In this document: piece by piece, positions 37,409 to 47,041 of the stretch
Position numbering within the stretch: position 1 is the stretch's first letter
Layout: each line of letters starts with the position of its first letter
Origin: an uncultured Tateyamaria sp.
GTDB taxonomy: Bacteria; Pseudomonadota; Alphaproteobacteria; Rhodobacterales; Rhodobacteraceae
Length of the DNA: 64,000 bases
Direction of reading: 5' to 3'
Assembly (NCBI RefSeq): GCF_947503045.1
Contig: NZ_CANNCF010000009.1
Location: 1 to 64,000, forward strand
The notes under the pieces: generated by a model
What the model saw: the letters and a program-made list of their open reading frames with translations, nothing else
Told to the model about the DNA's origin: nothing
The model's database searches: none
Position numbers and translations under genes: made by a program

Positions 37409-38221
37409 ATGACCCCCTGGATCGCTGCCCTTATCGCGTTGTTCATCTGGTGGTTTTCCACCGGAACAATCCTGATGGCGGTGAAATATGCCGATCGCGC
37501 TGGCCCTCGCGCGCGGCGCAACACCACGCTGGCTGCTCTGCCGCTTGTCGCACTCGGCACCTATGGCGTCTGGTGGTCTGCCCCGCAGACCGACATTTTC
37601 GGCATCTACGTCGCCTTCCTTTCGGCCCTTGCCCTGTGGGGCTGGATCGAAATGGCATTTCTGACCGGGATCATCGCCGGACCCAACACAACCCCCCTGC
37701 CCGTCCATGTGGCCGAGTGGGAACGGTTCATCCGGGCCTGGGGTACATTGGCGTATCACGAGATGCTTTTGGGTGCGACGCTGGTTGCCCTGGGCCTTGC
37801 GCTTTGGCAGGCCCCCAACCCGTTTGCCTTTTACACGTTCGCGGTGCTGTTTTTTGCCCGTGTGTCGGCCAAGCTGAACCTGTTCTTTGGCGTGCCTCAT
37901 ATCAACATCGATTTTCTGCCTGAGGCCCTGTCGCATCTGGCCAGCCACTTCCGCATCTGCAGCCTCAACTGGTTCTTCCCGGTCTCGGTCACGGCCCTGA
38001 CATTTGCCGCCGCCTGCTGGATTGAACGGCTTTATGCGGCGGACAGCGCGGGCCATGTCACAGGCTTTGCCCTGCTGACGGCCCTCACGGTCCTTGCGGC
38101 CATCGAACATTGGGTGATGGTTCTGCCGATCCCTGACGAACGGCTCTGGCGTTGGATGCTGCCCGCGCCCAAACCCACACCAAAACAACAAGCAAACCAA
38201 GGGGGACATCATGGACTTTGA
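37409..38221 (+). CDS. puhE: Photosynthetic complex assembly protein PuhE
   Basis: A 270-residue polytopic membrane protein with about seven hydrophobic segments, matching PuhE, which modulates bacteriochlorophyll production and complex assembly. Recognisable stretches are the N-terminal [10 protein letters not shown] helix, [16 protein letters not shown], and [24 protein letters not shown]. The start at 37409 follows GGAGG at 37397-37402; the frame continues upstream through the hairpin array but that part is not conserved-looking. Its end overlaps hemA by 11 bp. Confidence 0.92.
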
Positions 38222-39425
38222 TGTATTGTTCCAATCTCAGATCGACGCGCTGAAAGAGGAAGGCAATTACCGCATCTTTGCCGAACTGGAGCGCAAGGCC
38301 GGGGCGTTTCCAAAGGCCAAGTGCCATGACGACGATACCCCTGACGAGGTGACGGTCTGGTGTTCGAATGACTATCTGGGCATGGGCCAGCACGAAAGCG
38401 TCACCAGAGCGATGAAAGACGCGGTGGACCTTTACGGTGCGGGTGCAGGCGGCACGCGCAACATCAGCGGCACCAACCACGCCCACAAGCTGCTGGAGGC
38501 CGAACTGGCCGACCTGCACGGCAAGGAACAGGCGCTACTGTTCACCTCTGGCTATGTGTCGAACTGGGCTGCCCTCAGCACGCTGGGCGCGCGTCTGCCC
38601 GATGCAGTGATCCTGTCGGACGAGCTGAACCACGCTTCCATGATCGAAGGGATCCGCCATTCCCGCGCCAACAAGGTCATCTGGCGTCACAACGACCCCG
38701 AGGACCTCGATCGCAAACTATCGGCCCTGCCCGCCAATGCCCCCAAGATCGTGGCATTTGAATCCGTCTATTCCATGGATGGCGACATCTGCCCGATGAA
38801 AGAGATTGTCGAAGTGGCCGAGAAACACGGCGCGATGACCTATCTGGACGAAGTACACGCCGTTGGCCTTTACGGCCCCCGTGGTGGCGGCATTTCCGAG
38901 CGTGAGGGCCTCGCTGACCGGATCACCCTGATCGAGGGCACCCTTGGCAAGGCTTACGGCGTTGTAGGCGGCTATATCACGGGCTCTGAGGCGATGTGCG
39001 ACTTCATTCGCTCGTTCTCCTCCGGGTTCATCTTTACCACCGCCCTGCCCCCCGCTGTGGCGGCGGCGGCACGCACCTCTATCCAGCACCTCAAGCAGTC
39101 CGATCAGGAACGCATCCTGCAACGTGAACGGGTCGCGTACCTGCGCAAGCGCCTCGATCAAGAGGGCATCCCGCATCTCGACAATCCATCACACATCATC
39201 CCGGTGATGATCAAGGACCCGGTCAAATGCCGGATGCTGTCGGACTACCTCATGCAGCGTTACGGCATCTATGTGCAGCCCATCAACTACCCCACTGTGC
39301 CCAAGGGCACGGAACGGTTGCGCTTTACCCCGTCGCCGCTGCACAGCGTCGAGGACATCGAACATCTGGTCTTTGCGCTCAAGGATCTGTGGAAACAATG
39401 TGCCATCAGCCACGCAGTGGCGTGA
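38211..39425 (+). CDS. hemA: 5-aminolevulinate synthase
   Basis: A 404-residue PLP-dependent enzyme that condenses glycine and succinyl-CoA to 5-aminolevulinate, the first step of tetrapyrrole synthesis in alphaproteobacteria. The substrate-binding [13 protein letters not shown] segment, the [15 protein letters not shown] strand and the PLP lysine in [12 protein letters not shown] are all present. It overlaps the end of puhE by 11 bp and follows a GGGGGA site. Placing ALA synthesis in the PGC ties precursor supply to pigment demand. Confidence 0.97.
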
Positions 39426-39536: not shown

Positions 39537-39983
39537 ATGTTCCGTACTCTGACACTCCTGGCTGCGACAACGCTCGCCCTGCCCGCCTTCGCCGATGGCC
39601 ACGCCGCATCCGGTGACGCAGAAGCCGGTGAAAAGGCGTTCCGCCAGTGCATTTCCTGCCACATCGTCGCAAACGAAGACGGTGATGTCCTTGCCGGGAA
39701 GAATGCCAAGACCGGGCCAAACCTTTACGGCATCATTGGCAACCAGTTCGGAACCGTCGAAGGGTTTCGCTATTCCGACATCAACCAGCTGGCCTCAAGC
39801 ATGGAAGACGTCGTTGTGACCGAAGAAGTGTTTGTCGCCTATGTACAGGATCCAACCGCATATTTGCGCGAAGTGACCGGCGACAAGGGCCGCAGCAAGA
39901 TGACCTTCAAGGTGCGCAAGGAAGAAGACGCGATCAACCTCTACGCCTACCTCGCGTCCCTGTCTCCAGCGGAAACAAACTGA
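39537..39983 (+). CDS. cycA: Cytochrome c2
   Basis: A 148-residue periplasmic c-type cytochrome that carries electrons from the bc1 complex to the oxidised reaction centre. A signal peptide (about residues 1-20, ending AFA-D) precedes the heme motif CISCH (residues 38-42); the axial methionine fits Met122 in SKMTFKV. The KNAKTGPNLYGI stretch is typical of Rhodobacter cytochrome c2. An AAAGGAG site lies 7 bp upstream, and a strong terminator follows, so it closes the puh-hemA transcription unit. Confidence 0.93.
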   Translation: MFRTLTLLAATTLALPAFADGHAASGDAEAGEKAFRQCISCHIVANEDGDVLAGKNAKTGPNLYGIIGNQFGTVEGFRYSDINQLASSMEDVVVTEEVFVAYVQDPTAYLREVTGDKGRSKMTFKVRKEEDAINLYAYLASLSPAETN

Positions 39984-40046: not shown

Positions 40047-40157
40047 CTTGCGCACCCTGTTGCTGGATCAGTGCCAGTCTTTACAAAGTCTTTACTCTGC
40101 ACTGCCACTCCTCGCGTATCCTGTCCTTGCGATGAACGATTCGGAAAGCCTCAAGTT

Positions 40158-40922
40158 ATGACACACGCCTTGCAGATCCACGTAAACCTGCGTCGTATCG
40201 TCCTTGCTGCAACTGCAGCCCTCGCGATCTTCGCCGCACTATCGCAACCTGCCAAGGCGCAGCAGAATGACGACACCGATTGCGTCGTAGCCGCCCATTA
40301 TCCGCCCTACATCATAGGCAACACGCCCACCAACGCTGGAATTTCAATCGATATCATGCGCGCGGCGGCTGCGCGGGCGGGACGCACGATCCGCTTTGAA
40401 ATAATGCCGTTCAAGCGCACGCTTCATGTGTTGGCAACGGATGCGACCTGTATGATGCCGGTCCTCTATCGCAATAAAACGCGCGAACCACTGTATCGTT
40501 GGATTGCAGCTTACGATGCCACTGAATTGCACTTTTTGACGGTGGGTGCACCGGTCAACACGATCGAGGAAGGGAGGCAATTGGGCAGCATCGGCGTCGA
40601 AATCAGCGCTTCCGCCTATCAATTGCTTTCGGGGCTGGGATTTGAAAACCTCGTCGAAATCGCCAACCCCTTGTCATCGGCGCGGATGCTTCATGCCGGT
40701 CGAATTGATGCGTGGGCGCAGTCCTCCAAGGCAGCAACAGGCGTATGGAACGGTTTAGGGCTGGAACCACCCTTGCAGGCGGGTGATCCGATTTATGCCG
40801 TTCCGGTTTACGTTGTGGCGGGTCTTGGCTTTCCGGACGAGTTGGCCGAAATCTACAAGACTGCAATTGAAAGCCTGGTTGCCGACGGAACAGCCGCGCG
40901 CATCATTTCCAGTTACGAATGA
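40158..40922 (+). CDS. Periplasmic substrate-binding protein, SBP_bac_3 family (orphan)
   Basis: A 254-residue secreted protein with a signal peptide (hydrophobic core LAATAALAIFAAL, cleavage near AKAQQ) and a type-3 periplasmic binding fold. Features include YPPYIIGN near the mature N-terminus and a GISIDIMRAAAARAGRTIRFEIMPFKR stretch. No permease or ATPase gene is adjacent, so it may serve a sensory or standalone role. It sits between the cycA terminator and the replication module. The start at 40158 begins the signal peptide; an upstream ATG at 40071 lies next to the terminator. Confidence 0.8.
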   Translation: MTHALQIHVNLRRIVLAATAALAIFAALSQPAKAQQNDDTDCVVAAHYPPYIIGNTPTNAGISIDIMRAAAARAGRTIRFEIMPFKRTLHVLATDATCMMPVLYRNKTREPLYRWIAAYDATELHFLTVGAPVNTIEEGRQLGSIGVEISASAYQLLSGLGFENLVEIANPLSSARMLHAGRIDAWAQSSKAATGVWNGLGLEPPLQAGDPIYAVPVYVVAGLGFPDELAEIYKTAIESLVADGTAARIISSYE

Positions 40923-40969: not shown

Positions 40970-41647
40970 TCACATGATAATCCGCACTTCCGTGACATCA
41001 CTGTCCACGTCACGACATGCCGCCAGTATCCGCTTTTCCAAATGAGTCTGGACATAAGCCCCATGAAAGCGGGACGGCGCGCGCAGTGTCAAATGCCCCC
41101 CTGCCCGCTCAACACGGACCAGACCGGCGATCCAGCTTGCATAGAGGCCGGGATCATCCGTGTGCAACATCGCGCGTGCAAGGGCCCATTCCGTCCCTGA
41201 GGACACATCCGGGGCCTCCACGTGTCCTTTGATCGGCATTGGTACCACCTTGGGCTCTTCATCGTGCCCCATGCGCAATTCAAAATCAGGCCCGACTGCG
41301 GGCCATTGATCTGATGTGTCCCGCAACATCCTGTCCAGATCGAGGCCATGCTTGGCCACCCTGCCCCGCGCGCCTTGGCGTTTGACCACCAGCCAACCGC
41401 GGGCGCGCCATTGGGCCATCTCGCGCTTTACCGTGCGTTCATCAACCGACCACAGCCGCGCAATTTCGCGTTGACCCACCATCAACTCGTCGCGCGCCCA
41501 ATTGTAGCGCGCCGTGATCAACGTGATCAGCCGCAACACGCGCCGTTGATCGTGTTTGCCTTGCGCAAGCGCGTACGCGCCCAAAGCTGTAATGATGTCA
41601 TATTTGCGCGCAGAAGCGCGTTGGCCGACCGGCCTTAGCGTTTGCAT
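40970..41647 (-). CDS. DnaA-like plasmid replication initiator
   Basis: A 225-residue protein with a winged-helix-like N-terminal part (residues about 56-90, with VDERTVKREMAQWRARGWLVV) and a C-terminal part that resembles the N-terminal domain of chromosomal DnaA (residues 152-214, ending APSRFHGAYVQTHLEKRI). No AAA+ module is present. This fits the DnaA-like replicases reported on Roseobacter-group plasmids. The start at 41647 has GAGGG upstream; ATG 41740 and GTG 41761 are also in frame. It is divergent from parAB across the candidate origin. Confidence 0.8.
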   Translation of the reverse strand: MQTLRPVGQRASARKYDIITALGAYALAQGKHDQRRVLRLITLITARYNWARDELMVGQREIARLWSVDERTVKREMAQWRARGWLVVKRQGARGRVAKHGLDLDRMLRDTSDQWPAVGPDFELRMGHDEEPKVVPMPIKGHVEAPDVSSGTEWALARAMLHTDDPGLYASWIAGLVRVERAGGHLTLRAPSRFHGAYVQTHLEKRILAACRDVDSDVTEVRIIM

Positions 41648-41761
41648 GACTGCCCTCATTTTGCTGTAACGCCCGGATCGTCGTCCGGTTTCACCTGCCA
41701 GCGGTCGGGTTACCCCACGGTTCTCGCCGCTTTTCCGCATCTCGTCCTGATTTGCGTCCAC

Positions 41762-42139
41762 ATCTGCGATTCTGTCAAGTGTGGATGTTCAGATCAACAC
41801 GGATGCACCTAATCTAAATTGAAAAATTCAGGTTAATTGGTATTGGGGGACATCCTGAGTGTCCCCTATTTGGCAGCGTCTGTCACCCTATTGGTGGCGC
41901 TGCAATAACTTCTGTCCCCAATATATCGCGCGGTCTTCAAGAATTTCGTTCAAACGGCAATCGCATAAGAATCAACAACCAGCCAACGCCCTGGACGCCC
42001 ACGGCGATGTTTCGAAACACGTTATTCCCCTTTTGCATTTTTTGCAAAACAGGCGTAAATGGAAATCAGAGCAGAATTAGCGTCCATACGTTGGGCATCC
42101 AAGGACTGTCCCCACGGGGACGCGCAATACAGGCCAGAC
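41762..42139. other. Candidate replication origin between initiator and parAB
   Basis: This 378-bp gene-free gap holds an AT-rich stretch (41810-41840), an everted repeat GGGGACA-N7-TGTCCCC (41846-41866), a lone half-site TGTCCCC (41913-41919), a TTTTGCA-TTTTT-TGCAAAA hairpin (42031-42049) and a near-perfect parS-like palindrome (42107-42122). GTGTGGATG and ACACGGATG repeats lie near the initiator start. The position between a DnaA-like gene and parAB fits a plasmid origin; no experimental mark is visible in sequence alone. Confidence 0.6.
42107..42122. repeat. parS-like palindrome upstream of parA
   Basis: TGTCCCCACGGGGACG differs from the 16-bp palindrome TGTCCCCGCGGGGACA at two positions. 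It lies 17 bp before the parA ATG, where ParB binding could also autoregulate parAB. Confidence 0.65.
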
Positions 42140-43444
42140 ATGTTTACACATACCGACCTCGCACGCCTGCAGGCTCAATCGCTCAAGATGCAGGGATTTA
42201 TCCGGCAACAAACCTACTCGCCGCAAAGCGAAAAGACGCTGCGCCGCTTTTCTTCCTGGGAGGTGGCCGAGCTGATCTTCAAGGCCAATCAATCGACGCT
42301 GCGCGGGCGCCTCGCCGCCGACCCAACCCTGCCACAGGGCATCGTCGAAGAAGACGGTCGGCAACGTTGGTACACGCTGGGCGAAATCAACGAGATGCGC
42401 CGCCGGATCAAGGTCAATCGCAAGTCGCTGATGCCGTACCGCCCGCCGAACAAACGTGCCATCCGGGCCGCCATTGCGAACTTCAAGGGTGGCGCAGGTA
42501 AATCCACTACCGCGCTTCACTTTGCCCACGCCGCCGCACTTGATGGGTATCGCGTGCTCTGCGTCGACTTTGACCCGCAGGCCACGCTTTCCCACTCGAT
42601 GGGGCTGTCTGACGTGGCGGAGGAATACACCGTTTGGGGCATCATGGCGCGCGATCTGGGCCAGGAAACGGACCGTCAGAATTCTGCGATTACCGGGGCC
42701 GAATCCGGCACCGCCCTGCCCCAGCGCAAACTACCCGCCGCGATCACCGATATGGGGCTCAGCGCGCTGCGCGCTTCCGACTTCATCAAGCCGACAAACT
42801 GGCCCACCATCGATCTGGTGCCCAGTTGCGCCAACGCCGCCTTTGTCGAATTCGCCTCGGCGCAGTACCGCCATATCAATCCGGAATGGTCATTCTTTGC
42901 GGCGGTGTCCCGCTTCCTCGACCAACTTTCGCCAGACAATTACGACCTCATCATTTTCGACTGCCCCCCGGCGATCGGTTATCAGTCCATGAACGCGGTC
43001 TTTGCGGCTGACGTGCTCTATATCCCGTCCGGCCCCGGCTATTGGGAATACGATTCCACAACTTCTTTCATCGGGCAACTGTCCGAGGCGCTTGAGGATC
43101 TGGCCCGCTTCAACGGCCTAGTCCCTGCGGGGACAATGGGCCTGCCCAAGAGCTTTCTCGACCTGCGTTTTTTGCTCACACGTTACGAGCCGGGCAACGA
43201 TCTGCACCGCGCGATGCAGGGTGCGTTCCAAAAAGTGTTTGGTGATCGGGTTTGCGAACACCCGATCGAGATGACCCGCGCGGTCGAACAATCGGGGCGT
43301 TTCTTGTCCAGCATCTACGAAATGGACTACCGCGATATGACCCGCGAGACGTGGCGTCGGGCCCGGGCGTCGTTCGACCGTGCCTATGATGAATTCAAGA
43401 TAAACCTTGGCACAGCCTGGGACCAATTGGAGGATGAGGCATGA
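42140..43444 (+). CDS. parA: Plasmid partition ATPase ParA
   Basis: A 434-residue ParA of the large, type Ia kind: an N-terminal DNA-binding region (residues about 30-90, RRFSSWEVAELIFKANQSTLRGRL) followed by the deviant Walker A motif KGGAGKST at residues 116-123. The Walker B-like FDCPPAIGY stretch lies near residue 275. It moves plasmid copies apart with ParB and likely represses its own promoter. ATG 42140 is chosen; ATG 42059 is possible but would place the upstream palindrome in coding sequence. It overlaps parB by 4 bp. Confidence 0.9.
   Translation: MFTHTDLARLQAQSLKMQGFIRQQTYSPQSEKTLRRFSSWEVAELIFKANQSTLRGRLAADPTLPQGIVEEDGRQRWYTLGEINEMRRRIKVNRKSLMPYRPPNKRAIRAAIANFKGGAGKSTTALHFAHAAALDGYRVLCVDFDPQATLSHSMGLSDVAEEYTVWGIMARDLGQETDRQNSAITGAESGTALPQRKLPAAITDMGLSALRASDFIKPTNWPTIDLVPSCANAAFVEFASAQYRHINPEWSFFAAVSRFLDQLSPDNYDLIIFDCPPAIGYQSMNAVFAADVLYIPSGPGYWEYDSTTSFIGQLSEALEDLARFNGLVPAGTMGLPKSFLDLRFLLTRYEPGNDLHRAMQGAFQKVFGDRVCEHPIEMTRAVEQSGRFLSSIYEMDYRDMTRETWRRARASFDRAYDEFKINLGTAWDQLEDEA
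43120..43135. repeat. parS-like palindrome inside parA
   Basis: AGTCCCTGCGGGGACA matches 14 of 16 positions of TGTCCCCGCGGGGACA. It is read in the parA frame as VPAGT. Confidence 0.55.
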
Positions 43445-44499
43445 GCAAACGGCGCGTGTTTGACATTGATTTTGAACCCGAAACGACCAGCCCACCGGCT
43501 GAAAGCGCACCGCCTGAAGCGGAGCCCACGCGGCGTGGGCCGATGGCATCGGCAATCTCGGAAAACGCCGCTGCGATGAGCGAGCGCCAGAGTGCCGAAG
43601 CCGCGATCCGGGCAGAGAATGACCGCCTCGCCCATGAATATGTATCACTCAAGCGCGACGGCGGCATCGTCGCGCGCGTTCCCATCGACGAGGTGCGGAT
43701 TTCGAAACTGGTGCGCGACCGTGGCGCGGCGGACGATCCGGAATTTGCTGAACTTAAAACCTCGATCCGTGAGATTGGTCTGTCGAACCCGATTCAGGTC
43801 GAGGACACGGGCGTCGGCTATGAACTCATTCAGGGCTTTCGCCGTCTCAAGGCGTTCAAGGCTCTTTATGACGAGACCGGCGAGGCGCGTTTTGCCGCCA
43901 TCCCGGCGGGTCTTGTGGCCAAGGGCGAGGCGCTCGATCGGCTGTACCGACGGATGATCGACGAGAACCTTGTGCGCCGCGATATTTCTTTTGCCGAAAT
44001 GGGTCAGTTGGCTGCTGCCTACGCACGTCAGATGGAAATCGATTTAAGCGAAGCGATTGCGACGCTCTATGCCTCTGCCGGGCGGCAAAAGCGGAACTAT
44101 ATCGGGCATTTTGCGGCTCTAATGAGCTTAATAGGGCATAAACTGAAGTTCCCAGAAGCGATCCCCCGTGCCCTGGGGCTGCGCCTGATCAAAGCACTGG
44201 AAGAGATGCCGCGCCTGCGCCAGCAACTTGATACCGTACTGGATGCTCACGATCCGCAATCTGCCGAGGCAGAGTTGGGCATTCTCAATCAAGTTCTGGA
44301 ATTCAAACCGGATGGCGAAGTGGTGCGCCCGCTTGCATCCTCCAAAACCACACTCAAACTGAACCGCAAGACCGGTCCGGTAAAAGTGACAGGCGCCAAG
44401 GGCAAGGTCGAGTTGCGGATGGATCAGGATTTCGGCGCCGTTGATGCGCGCAAGCTTGAGGCTGCAGTGCGCGCGATGCTGGACCAACTGGGCCTGTGA
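43441..44499 (+). CDS. parB: Plasmid partition protein ParB
   Basis: A 352-residue centromere-binding protein. The N-terminal tail is followed by the ParB/Srx-type domain: VPIDEVRIS, then EFAELKTSIREIGLSNPIQV, and the nucleotide-binding GFRRLKAF stretch (equivalent to GERR). A helix-turn-helix region lies around residues 180-225 (ISFAEMGQLAAAYARQMEIDLSEAI). The gene is intact and coupled to parA. Its binding sites are probably the repeated 16-bp palindromes nearby. Confidence 0.9.
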   Translation: MSKRRVFDIDFEPETTSPPAESAPPEAEPTRRGPMASAISENAAAMSERQSAEAAIRAENDRLAHEYVSLKRDGGIVARVPIDEVRISKLVRDRGAADDPEFAELKTSIREIGLSNPIQVEDTGVGYELIQGFRRLKAFKALYDETGEARFAAIPAGLVAKGEALDRLYRRMIDENLVRRDISFAEMGQLAAAYARQMEIDLSEAIATLYASAGRQKRNYIGHFAALMSLIGHKLKFPEAIPRALGLRLIKALEEMPRLRQQLDTVLDAHDPQSAEAELGILNQVLEFKPDGEVVRPLASSKTTLKLNRKTGPVKVTGAKGKVELRMDQDFGAVDARKLEAAVRAMLDQLGL

Positions 44500-44527: not shown

Positions 44528-45400
44528 TCACAAGCCTTGCTGTTTCGCCATGTCCAGGATCAAGTTTGCTATCTGGTCGGGCCGTTCTTCATGAGCAAGG
44601 TGCCCAAGGTCGGGCAGGTTGGTCACAGTGGCATCCGATAGCGATTGGGCAATGCCAAGTGATACCGTTGGCGGAACCGTCGCGTCTTTCTCACCGACAA
44701 TAAATCGGACGGGCCCGTCATAACCCTTCAACGCATCTAACAGCGGTTGCAGTTTCCACTGTGCCATCATCAACAAAGTCGCATCGACGTGGTTTCTGTC
44801 TGCAACGAGGCGGCGGTACAGATCGAGCCCCACTTGGTCCAATTCAGAGCCTGTCGCATTGATCAGAGCCTTGATGCGGGCCGGATTGGCTGATGCGCCG
44901 GAGAATAGGCGCGCGGTGAACGGAACCGCTGCGAGTGCTTTCGCCATCAGCGGAAATATGAAGCCAGCCAGCCCCGGAAACTCGCCCAAAGCCGCGTTGA
45001 TTCCAATCACCAAGGGCTGTTGTCCCCGCGGGGACAGGTCAGGCATGGCCATGCGCAAAGCGATTGCGCCACCTGCGGAATGGCCAACGATGATCCGTGG
45101 TTCCCACTCTTCCTGCACACATAACGCAGTGATGTCCTGCGCCATCGGATCCAGGCCGCAGCGGTGCCGCGCGCCCAACTGAGTGAAGCCCTGCCCCGGC
45201 AGGTCGATTGCAACCACGTGGTAGGCTTTCGACAGGGGCTCGATCATGTCGCGAAAATTGTGTGTCGACCCACCTGCCCCATGTAGCAAGAGCAGGGTTT
45301 GGCCCTTCCCGGCTTCTTGCACATGCCAGCGGTGCACCGGGCCGGATGTGCGGCGCGACAAGTTTGCATTCGGCCAGGTTTTGAGTGCGGACCAGTCCAT
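44528..45400 (-). CDS. bchO: Alpha/beta hydrolase BchO (Mg-chelatase-associated)
   Basis: A 290-residue alpha/beta hydrolase encoded with bchI and bchD in most purple bacterial PGCs. The oxyanion-loop region HGAGGSTHNFRDM and the nucleophile elbow GHSAGGA (around residue 107) are present, and a C-terminal LGHLAHEERP supplies the His. Its exact reaction is not established. A perfect parS-like palindrome (45021-45036) lies within the coding sequence. It lies 3 bp after bchD in the same operon. Confidence 0.92.
   Translation of the reverse strand: MDWSALKTWPNANLSRRTSGPVHRWHVQEAGKGQTLLLLHGAGGSTHNFRDMIEPLSKAYHVVAIDLPGQGFTQLGARHRCGLDPMAQDITALCVQEEWEPRIIVGHSAGGAIALRMAMPDLSPRGQQPLVIGINAALGEFPGLAGFIFPLMAKALAAVPFTARLFSGASANPARIKALINATGSELDQVGLDLYRRLVADRNHVDATLLMMAQWKLQPLLDALKGYDGPVRFIVGEKDATVPPTVSLGIAQSLSDATVTNLPDLGHLAHEERPDQIANLILDMAKQQGL
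45021..45036. repeat. Perfect parS-like palindrome inside bchO
   Basis: TGTCCCCGCGGGGACA is a perfect 16-bp palindrome, identical to the copy at 46577 in bchD. It is read within bchO as SPRGQ. Confidence 0.7.
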
Positions 45401-45403
45401 GGA

Positions 45404-47041
45404 TTAGCCATCCAGAGCGGAATTCACCGCGCTGGTCAACCGATGCGCGTCTGCCCGTGGCAATGGCACATACGGAGCGGACAAGGTCCGGCTGAGCGCT
45501 GCCAATGAGGGTTGAGGTCGGTTGGACATGTCGATCACAAGACTTGCGATTCCAGAAGCGGTCAGCGCTCGCGCCATCCGCGTTGCGTCCTCGCCGGCCA
45601 GCGCCCGATTGGCACTGCCATCAAGGGCAATATTCGCTCGGCCATCGGTGATCAGGACCACCGTCGGGGTCATTCCCTTGGACCGCGATTGCAAGGCCAG
45701 CAACAGCGCGCTCTGCAGTCCCGTCGCCAAAGGCGTGCCGCCACCGCCAGGCAACGCGGACAGGCGTCGCTTGGTCTGCACCAGCGAGCGGGTAGGGGGC
45801 AGCAAAACCTCGGCGTCGGTCCCCCGGAAAGAAATCAAGGAGACCTGATCGCGGCTTGCATAGGCTTCGGCCAAAAGCAGTTCGATAGCCCCTTTGGCCT
45901 CGCCCAAACGCGAGACCGCGGCTGAACCAGAGGCGTCTACGCAAAAGATCAACAGGCGATCTGATTGCTCCTGATAGCGTTTGAGACGGATGTCTGATGG
46001 GCGAAAGAGCAAACCCTGTTTGCCTGGCTGTTGTTGGCGGCGCAGCGGTTGCCATGGCGCCGCCGCGCGCAGGGTGCCGATCAGGTCGATGCGTTTGGTG
46101 CCGTCCAGCCGTCCGGGTCGCGAGGGCAGGGGGCGCCCCCGGCGGTTTGATGACCGTTTCTGGCCTGCGCCCGCGCCACCGCTTTGCCGTGCTGTCCCCG
46201 CAGGGACAAGTCCAGACAGCAGCCCTTGCGGAAGGAGCGATTTGACAGCCGCGATCAGCATGTCTGTGTCGGGCAGGTTCAGCTCCTGATCGCTGTCCTG
46301 ACCATCTCCGGTATCGTCTTGGGGTGGAGGTGGCGTCTTCTCTTGCTCAGATTGCTCGGCCTCGGGAACGAGGGTTGCGCGATGGGGGTACACAAGCGAC
46401 GCAGCCACAGTTACGTCCTGATCGGTCAAGTGATCTCTGCCCATTAATGTAGCGTTTGCCGATGCTGCCTTGAGCGCGAGTGTAGGCGCACGCAAGGACG
46501 GTATACCAAACCGAGCTGCAAGCAGCGTCAGTTGGGTCAATGCCTCTTCTCGGTCAACTGGACCACCAGAGGGATTTGTCCCCGCGGGGACAGACGGTTT
46601 GCGTCCCTCGGGGCAGATGTGAAATGCGAGGCGTTCAGATAAAACGGTCGGTGTGCTTTCGTCCTCCTCAATCCCTTCATCAAGAGCCAGAATGCCATTT
46701 GTTAGAGACCGTTCGGACAGTGTCGCGAGTTTTGCGCCCAGCGATGTGGGGCACCTCTCGGCCATGGGGATCATTGCAGTACACGAAGTATGAAAAAAAC
46801 CTTTATTTTCAATGATTTCTGATGATGCAAGTGTCGCACTCAGATCAATGCCACCAAATAGTTGCTCGTCCGCAATGCCAATGGGCAATTTGCGTATCGG
46901 ATGGCGGGGACGAAAGTCTGCCAGCAGCGCATCGCGGGCAGGGGAAGCGCGCATGCGAATGACTGCGCCGCCCAGGCCCACAGGATCTATTGCAAGTAAT
47001 TTGAGTGCCAATGCGGCATTATGCCAGGACTCCGCGCTCAT
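45404..47041 (-). CDS. bchD: Magnesium chelatase subunit D
   Basis: A 545-residue subunit that bridges BchI and BchH. The N-terminal AAA+-like half is degenerate (no Walker A). A proline-rich acidic linker (TPPPPQDDTGDGQDSDQE) separates it from the C-terminal von Willebrand A domain with the MIDAS motif DASGS. Two parS-like palindromes lie in this gene, in the linker-side regions, each encoding VPAGT. A short AT-rich patch around 46785-46830 departs from the base composition of the rest. It lies 19 bp after bchI. Confidence 0.94.
   Translation of the reverse strand: MSAESWHNAALALKLLAIDPVGLGGAVIRMRASPARDALLADFRPRHPIRKLPIGIADEQLFGGIDLSATLASSEIIENKGFFHTSCTAMIPMAERCPTSLGAKLATLSERSLTNGILALDEGIEEDESTPTVLSERLAFHICPEGRKPSVPAGTNPSGGPVDREEALTQLTLLAARFGIPSLRAPTLALKAASANATLMGRDHLTDQDVTVAASLVYPHRATLVPEAEQSEQEKTPPPPQDDTGDGQDSDQELNLPDTDMLIAAVKSLLPQGLLSGLVPAGTARQSGGAGAGQKRSSNRRGRPLPSRPGRLDGTKRIDLIGTLRAAAPWQPLRRQQQPGKQGLLFRPSDIRLKRYQEQSDRLLIFCVDASGSAAVSRLGEAKGAIELLLAEAYASRDQVSLISFRGTDAEVLLPPTRSLVQTKRRLSALPGGGGTPLATGLQSALLLALQSRSKGMTPTVVLITDGRANIALDGSANRALAGEDATRMARALTASGIASLVIDMSNRPQPSLAALSRTLSAPYVPLPRADAHRLTSAVNSALDG
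46193..46208. repeat. parS-like palindrome inside bchD (copy 1)
   Basis: TGTCCCCGCAGGGACA matches 15 of 16 positions of the palindrome. It is read in the bchD frame as VPAGT, near the linker before the VWA domain. Confidence 0.65.
46577..46592. repeat. Perfect parS-like palindrome inside bchD (copy 2)
   Basis: TGTCCCCGCGGGGACA, a perfect 16-bp palindrome identical to the bchO copy, read as VPAGT in bchD just after KPS. Confidence 0.7.

Follow-up and report, generated by a model that had tools for sequence, protein, structure and literature searches.

A stretch of 64,000 nucleotides from an uncultured Tateyamaria sp. (hereafter the window; bases 1-64000 of a 75,453-bp contig in a 4.74-Mb assembly of 28 contigs) carries, in the middle of its photosynthesis gene cluster (PGC), a module for plasmid replication and partition that consists of an initiator gene, an intergenic region, parA and parB. 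The initial annotation had placed these elements between cycA and bchO, and we found all of them there with open reading frames; the position holds, except that a gene for an extracellular solute-binding protein separates cycA from the initiator. parAB are divergent from the adjoining initiator, as in DnaA-like I replicons, and parA and parB are coupled through a 4-bp overlap, as had been described.

Homologues and the Tateyamaria omphalii annotation place the start of the initiator at M39 of a 263-aa frame, and with this start the intergenic region measures 492 bp instead of the 378 bp first proposed for the candidate origin. Pfam matched residues 205-250 to DnaA_N (E 1.1e-4, 22.3 bits, below the 24.6 cut-off), gave a weaker match to a Crp-type winged helix and listed no AAA+ family, in agreement with the earlier description of a DnaA-N-like C-terminus without an AAA+ part. 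The frame is not a product of chance: a search returned 289 plasmid records with a match, and in 239 the match covers at least 80% of the query. The 263-aa frame is 74% identical to the record of T. omphalii pDOK1-4-3, and the initiator is 68.6% identical to that of Roseobacter litoralis pRLO149_94 and 71.5% identical to that of S. indolifex pDSM14862_b, so that the comparison with known replicases reached a typed replicon: pDSM14862_b appears as DnaA-like-I in a table of PMC9025767. Judged by these identities, the protein is a homologue of typed DnaA-like I replicases. Its structure model was too poor for a fold search (pLDDT 47), and a search against PDB sequences gave no significant match (best E 0.08). 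ParA matches AAA_31 (Pfam, 4e-25), and its best NCBIfam model is plasmid partitioning RepA (1e-61, below that model's own cut-off). By profile, ParB gave a weak match (ParB_N at 26.0 bits vs a Pfam cut-off of 26.3), and its residues ~70-204 match the solved Spo0J/ParB chains 1vz0 and 6sdk. A second, weak Bac_DnaA match lies on another contig of the same genome (G000, C1:1346232-1346414) and perhaps belongs to an Hda-like protein.

An alignment of the intergenic region (15 rows from 12 Tateyamaria genomes) revealed a conserved dyad, GGGGACA-N7-TGTCCCC, at 41846-41866 and a conserved block, CCCCTTTTGC..GCAAAA..GCGTAAAT, at ~42027-42060. In the candidate origin no iterons were found, only short two-copy repeats, and nothing matches the DnaA box consensus; the window as a whole has six near matches to the box vs 6.25 expected, none of them within 41648-42139, and we rejected host DnaA boxes at the origin on these counts. 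The same alignment also yielded a 16-bp palindrome, TGTCCCCGCGGGGACA. Allowing up to 3 mismatches, it occurs at five places in the window vs 0.70 expected, a number reached in 0/100 shuffles, and all five lie inside 4.5 kb (Table 1). At up to 1 mismatch the 4.74-Mb assembly holds three sites, all of them within bchO or bchD. Up to 2 mismatches, the T. omphalii plasmid has 12 places and the R. litoralis plasmid six, in each case as one cluster running from the intergenic region to bchD. The palindrome is likely to be the centromere (parS) of the module.

Table 1. Positions of the module, its neighbours and the palindromes in the window, and of ParB genes found elsewhere without a close initiator
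Feature	Position	Strand	Remarks
hemA (5-aminolevulinate synthase) of the PGC	38211..39425	+	
cycA (cytochrome c)	39537..39983	+	neighbours the module on its upstream side
Extracellular solute-binding protein family 3 gene	40071..40922	+	between cycA and initiator; Pfam
DnaA-like I replication initiator	40970..41647	-	225 aa, start = M39 of 263-aa frame; by homology
Intergenic region, candidate origin	41648..42139	.	492 bp; alignment, repeat and DnaA-box scans
parS-like palindrome, intergenic region	42107..42122	.	2 mismatches
parA, plasmid partition ATPase	42140..43444	+	434 aa; ATG 42140, start as in T. omphalii
parS-like palindrome, in parA	43120..43135	.	2 mismatches
parB	43441..44499	+	352 aa; ATG 43441, 4-bp overlap with parA
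bchO	44528..45400	-	
Candidate parS, in bchO	45021..45036	.	exact TGTCCCCGCGGGGACA; peptide LSPRGQ
bchD, magnesium chelatase subunit D	45404..47041	-	
Candidate parS, in bchD	46193..46208	.	1 mismatch; peptide LVPAGT
Candidate parS, in bchD	46577..46592	.	exact; peptide SVPAGT
Orphan ParB, G063	L017:12288-13433		directly beside bchO
Orphan ParB, G034	L020:4965-6329		34 kb from bchO, 4.15-Mb contig
Orphan ParB, G247	L021:3748-4986		15 kb from bchO, beside repABC-like trio

The first 77 bp of the contig are identical to its last 77 bp, and this 77-mer occurs at only two places in the whole assembly, namely the two contig ends. Contig ends that match each other and recur nowhere else are what a circular molecule should leave in a k-mer assembly, and because the end repeat is unique, the contig closes to a circle of ~75.4 kb. 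A tRNA scan of the contig found none, and Rfam at gathering score found no family on it, rRNA included. The best initiator match is the circular, 77.6-kb pDOK1-4-3 of T. omphalii, in which the gene order is the same, and the module is arranged in the same way on pRLO149_94 of R. litoralis, a closed circle. These data support the conclusion that the contig is a photosynthesis plasmid of Tateyamaria, one of two options left by the initial annotation, rather than an integrated one. The suggestion that pigment and maintenance genes are transferred as one unit found no support among conjugation genes: among contig frames of at least 110 aa that matched neither the T. omphalii plasmid nor that of R. 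litoralis, seven were put through Pfam, which identified Hsp70, an FMN oxidoreductase, a GNAT and a solute-binding protein and returned no family for the others, no search for relaxase or type IV secretion system profiles being made over the remainder of the contig, and both relative plasmids are typed non-mobilizable. panBC, present on both of these photosynthesis plasmids, has no match on the window's contig.

We then asked how sites in pigment genes are distributed among PGCs with and without a module. Among 394 sampled genomes of the family, BchO occurs in 165 and the initiator in 98, and the module lies beside bchO in at least 14, within 5 kb in 11 of them and across a contig end in three (G302, G384, G116). 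The small PGC contigs of G116 (C33, 49,370 bp) and G384 (C12, 69,584 bp), in which the module spans the contig ends, are probably closed photosynthesis plasmids too. We gathered 28 loci with an embedded module and counted 26 (12 of them from Tateyamaria), leaving out G402 and G400, whose stretches end before bchO. A TG-type site, that is, TGTCCCCGCGGGGACA with up to 1 mismatch, lies in bchO or bchD at 24 of the 26, and 25 have their own parS variant there if the GT-type site of G105 is included. As controls we picked by hand 39 PGC loci whose fetched stretch holds no module, G310 and the loci with orphan ParBs being excluded; these contained no site at up to 2 mismatches and no 12-bp core in 386,137 bp (Fisher 4e-17). 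With one genome per genus, R. litoralis being left out, 13 of 14 embedded loci have a site (2e-11). R. ponti, outside the 26, has three sites in bchO and bchD. G113 has a single site genome-wide, as does its reversed-pattern control.

At the protein level, a TG-type site is present in 17/19 plasmid BchO rows vs 0/39 controls and in 16/19 plasmid BchD rows vs 0/38 controls, one too-short control BchD having been dropped. The main BchO site falls in a surface-like loop of variable length, which reads SPRG or SPQG in 16/19 plasmid rows and in none of the 39 controls. We rejected a clean insertion of four residues, as the loop is equally long in 12/19 plasmid rows and in 6/39 controls and it is the peptide that separates the two groups; the BchO site is an altered loop sequence instead. 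The main BchD site (peptide LVPAGT in the window) occupies the same aligned column in 12/19 rows. On a simple reading, parS copies would have accumulated at a place that the partition complex already occupied, with the protein loops yielding to them.

The palindrome is also found away from pigment genes. A Leisingera plasmid whose module has no PGC beside it has 10 sites (nine exact) across 3.7 kb around parAB, and G307, G042 and G001 have copies at parAB in modules that likewise lack an adjacent PGC; this clustering supports our reading of the palindrome as parS. One Pseudosulfitobacter and three Sulfitobacter plasmids carry three to four copies of GTTCCCCGCGGGGAAC (GT-type) at or near parAB instead, and a TTT..AAA variant occurs in G310 and G083. 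Repeated palindromes cluster at parAB in DnaA-like I modules, and the core TCCCCGCGGGGA is common to all variants. Genome-wide counts outside Tateyamaria, made in 50 genomes chosen by hand, gave 16-20 palindromes per genome in G088, G001, G266, G081 and G037 vs 2-8 in most module carriers. The exact palindrome is also present in three viral contigs (L259-L261).

Of particular value for the link between palindrome and ParB is G105, an embedded photosynthesis plasmid with one GT-type copy each by the parA start, in parB, in bchO and in bchD. In the ParB tree it groups with the TG-type G081 (support 98/91), and its ParB has T219, Q223 and Y250 in common with Sulfitobacter ParBs and with 0/26 TG-type rows; at residue 214 it is unlike the Sulfitobacter rows. 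In a scan of all ParB columns the two groups had no residue in common at ten; three of these columns lie in residues 214-223, which would fall where the DNA-binding part is expected from domain order. Twice, it seems, a change of site type went along with a change of ParB residues.

In other Tateyamaria the palindrome extends to the chromosome. Across 20 Tateyamaria genomes, sites with up to 1 mismatch number 65-108 in 11 genomes, 26 in G410, three each in G000 and G397 and none in six, the latter being those without a close initiator; a close initiator (81-100%) is present in the other 14/20. The reversed palindrome pattern gave no site in the same 20 genomes. T. omphalii holds 55 exact copies, 45 on the chromosome, where composition predicts 0.004, and the other 10 on its photosynthesis plasmid, so that by subtraction no copy is left for other contigs. 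The genome used for these counts is G395, whose initiator and exact palindromes fall at the coordinates of pDOK1-4-3 and which we therefore take for this strain. The flanks of the 45 chromosomal sites hold almost no information, apart from a slight preference for a purine at the adjoining base, and the sites are therefore not part of a longer repeat. Their positions fit a uniform spread (Kuiper p 0.46, spacing coefficient of variation 0.96; the terminus was not located), and we rejected regular spacing or gaps, as no departure from random was seen. Comparing the 45 T. omphalii contexts with 20 stretches of G394 (21 sites), we could align 13, of which 12 are exact in both at a flank identity of 77-89%; the fetching enriched these pairs for shared sites, and all exact T. 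omphalii contexts were included. At least 12 of the 21 sampled G394 sites are exactly shared with T. omphalii vs an expectation of 3% (0.8^16; binomial 6e-14, an approximation), and many chromosomal copies appear to be kept by selection.

One block was followed through 19 genomes. All 11 high-count genomes have its first site in exact form, and the stretch could not be aligned in the other eight; the second site, which is coding, is exact in two genomes, differs at one position in four more and passes into other sequence in the remainder, with small gaps in some rows. A tree of this one locus unites the 11 high-count genomes (99/99) with the zero-count G407 as sister, which would fit one colonisation of the high-count clade, with G410 apart. 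A short genome-wide repeat, unrelated to the palindrome, occurs at L192:3630-3690 and many other Tateyamaria places, also in species without the plasmid.

These copies bring up the possibility that, on an otherwise ordinary photosynthesis plasmid, the bchO and bchD palindromes stem from a dispersing palindromic repeat or from chance and have no centromere role. A mobile palindrome could account for 65-108 copies in related Tateyamaria, and many of the 21 copies examined sit in long open frames. We nevertheless regard this explanation as unlikely, given the nearly information-free flanks in T. omphalii, the aligned coding site, where the exact palindrome shades off by way of one mismatch into normal coding sequence, gapless in most rows, a palindrome variant that tracks the ParB lineage, and the clustering of copies at parAB in unrelated plasmids.

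ParB is also found without its module. G063, G034 and G247 each have a ParB of the module family that lacks the first ~70 residues, and no close initiator in the genome; in the initiator search G063 gave a 39% match and G247 none at E 1e-20. The place of these orphans in the ParB tree is unsure, as they form long branches. Three palindromes lie at the G063 locus, in bchD, between genes and in parB, and the genome-wide counts are 95 sites in G063 and 67 in G247. G034 has no TG-type site and carries two CT-type copies (CTT..AAG) in and beside the orphan parB. The repABC-like trio that adjoins the orphan on the PGC contig of G247 (L021:5018-8536) is a possible replacement of a DnaA-like replicon. 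When the G063 orphan was used as query, the module's ParB was the single match at E 1e-15 in G394, G401, G404 and G409; these four genomes thus yielded no orphan chromosomal ParB that might read the Tateyamaria sites.

The binding motif of the pigment-gene regulator PpsR is TGT-N12-ACA, which the TGT...ACA ends of the palindrome resemble, and the palindrome sits in bch genes. It might on this account be an operator for such a regulator, or for the initiator, rather than parS. We think this very improbable: the spacing is N10 vs N12, the palindrome is present at parAB also where a plasmid has no pigment genes at that place, it has GTT..AAC, TTT..AAA and CTT..AAG variants, and G063 and G247, with an orphan ParB and no close DnaA-like I initiator, still have 95 and 67 sites. 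That the plasmid sits in a chromosome with its replicon intact, as contig sequences alone from a draft of 28 contigs might allow, is scarcely credible and was rejected on the unique 77-bp overlap that closes the contig, to which the two closed circular relatives and the lack of rRNA and tRNA finds on the contig are added. F-prime-like excision of an integrated plasmid was also considered as a conceivable origin.

Taken together, our data very probably describe a closed, ~75.4-kb DnaA-like I photosynthesis plasmid of Tateyamaria, whose best parS copies, inside bchO and bchD, double as its centromere. The view that the PGC itself is the backbone of the replicon, put forward in the initial annotation, is strengthened by these candidate parS sites. 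We propose that the initiator, so called from its homology, targets the intergenic region and starts replication with host machinery, and that its C-terminal part, resembling DnaA domain I, perhaps recruits the helicase. From what is known of the protein families, ParB would load on TGTCCCCGCGGGGACA in bchO and bchD and slide, ParA would move the partition complex over the nucleoid, and part of the Mg-chelatase genes, in which the sites are plainly present, would double as centromere. Should bchO and bchD indeed hold parS, the same bases would serve both the pigment genes and the inheritance of the plasmid. In that case the sites would also be scars that mark a chromosomal PGC derived from such a plasmid; the 39 PGC loci without a nearby module show no site, which speaks against recent plasmid descent for those.

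Several observations weigh against a centromere in the pigment genes. The two window copies nearest parA carry 2 mismatches each, G116 has an embedded module and no site in bchO or bchD, and no TG-type site turned up in G107, G245, G104 or G303, all of which have a match to the initiator. The controls were chosen by us and with the exclusions named above, and in G001, which is among the control genomes, an exact site lies 6.2 kb from bchO, slightly beyond the fetched stretch. The long form of the BchO loop is shared by plasmid rows and controls. As for ParB, the column scan was unguided and compared five GT-type with 26 TG-type rows, with G025, G335 and G116 set aside; four of the five GT-type rows are close relatives, which leaves the weight on G105, itself a long branch in the tree.

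A wider reading, which we put forward tentatively and hold to be somewhat less probable than not, joins the centromere in the pigment genes to a ParB recruited chromosome-wide in the clade of 11 Tateyamaria species (65-108 selected sites) and to a ParB that outlived initiator and ParA as an orphan in G063 and G247. Dozens of conserved chromosome-wide sites are true of other Tateyamaria, not of the window's own genome. A plasmid partition protein may here have become a chromosome-wide DNA-binding factor, and the chromosomal sites may serve nucleoid organisation or occlusion, titration of ParB, or help in chromosome partition.

The arrangement of the plasmid as such is already published for other strains. 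Brinkmann 2018 (PMC6052148) describes DnaA-like I modules at an identical central PGC position in several genera and proposes a single outsourcing event followed by reintegrations, and Liu 2019 (PMC6739100) counts 13 such replicons, three of them from Tateyamaria. R. litoralis pRLO149_94, the Tateyamaria strains ANG-S1 and syn59, and T. omphalii pDOK1-4-3 agree with the window in replicon type, cycA-bchO position and gene order; compared with the cycA-bchO junction of its relatives, the window has one extra gene on the cycA side, the solute-binding protein gene, for which neither the T. omphalii plasmid nor that of R. litoralis gave a match. Of the two DnaA-like PGC replicons named in the initial annotation, that of R. 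litoralis stands, and S. guttiformis carries RepB-III instead, according to Brinkmann 2018 (PMC6052148). parS in bchO or bchD goes unmentioned in the passages of these two papers that we consulted. The R. litoralis and T. omphalii plasmids also carry sites in bchO and bchD, and sites in pigment genes appear to be a property of DnaA-like I photosynthesis plasmids as a kind. No paper with TGTCCCCGCGGGGACA or GTCCCCGCGGGGAC was found in PMC literature text, and neither the parS sites in pigment genes nor their chromosomal copies were found in print, in a search that did not cover the founding papers of Petersen 2011 and 2012; these two are what is new here.

ParABS systems of the Spo0J/ParB kind have a 16-bp parS, which in its canonical form has TGT...ACA ends. 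The window type is alike in its 16-bp palindrome, in these ends and in having several copies near parAB, and it differs by its core TCCCCGCGGGGA and by copies in metabolic genes. Spreading ParB of the plasmids F and P1, and KorB of RK2, silence neighbouring genes from their own sites; in the same way, we propose, ParB spreading from the sites in bchO and bchD of the window plasmid could dampen bchIDO expression.

Noc, the ParB-derived nucleoid occlusion factor of Firmicutes, resembles the Tateyamaria case in being a ParB relative with dozens of chromosomal sites, and the G063 and G247 orphans are Noc-like in lacking the first ~70 residues. Sites of Noc and SlmA are rare near the terminus; the evenly spread T. 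omphalii sites give no sign of such a gap, although the position of the terminus on this chromosome was not located. The N-terminus of ParB stimulates ParA, and Noc has a membrane helix there instead, according to PMC7333895. The same source gives ~600 kb around the native locus or origin as the range within which P. aeruginosa and C. crescentus tolerate extra parS, a limit that contrasts with the 45 evenly spread copies on the T. omphalii chromosome. Unlike Noc, the candidate reader in Tateyamaria is the plasmid's own full-length ParB, together with its ParA and the plasmid parS sequence, and if the wider reading is true, Tateyamaria would present an independent, plasmid-born counterpart of Noc at several stages, from the three sites of the window's genome through the 26 of G410 to the full complement.

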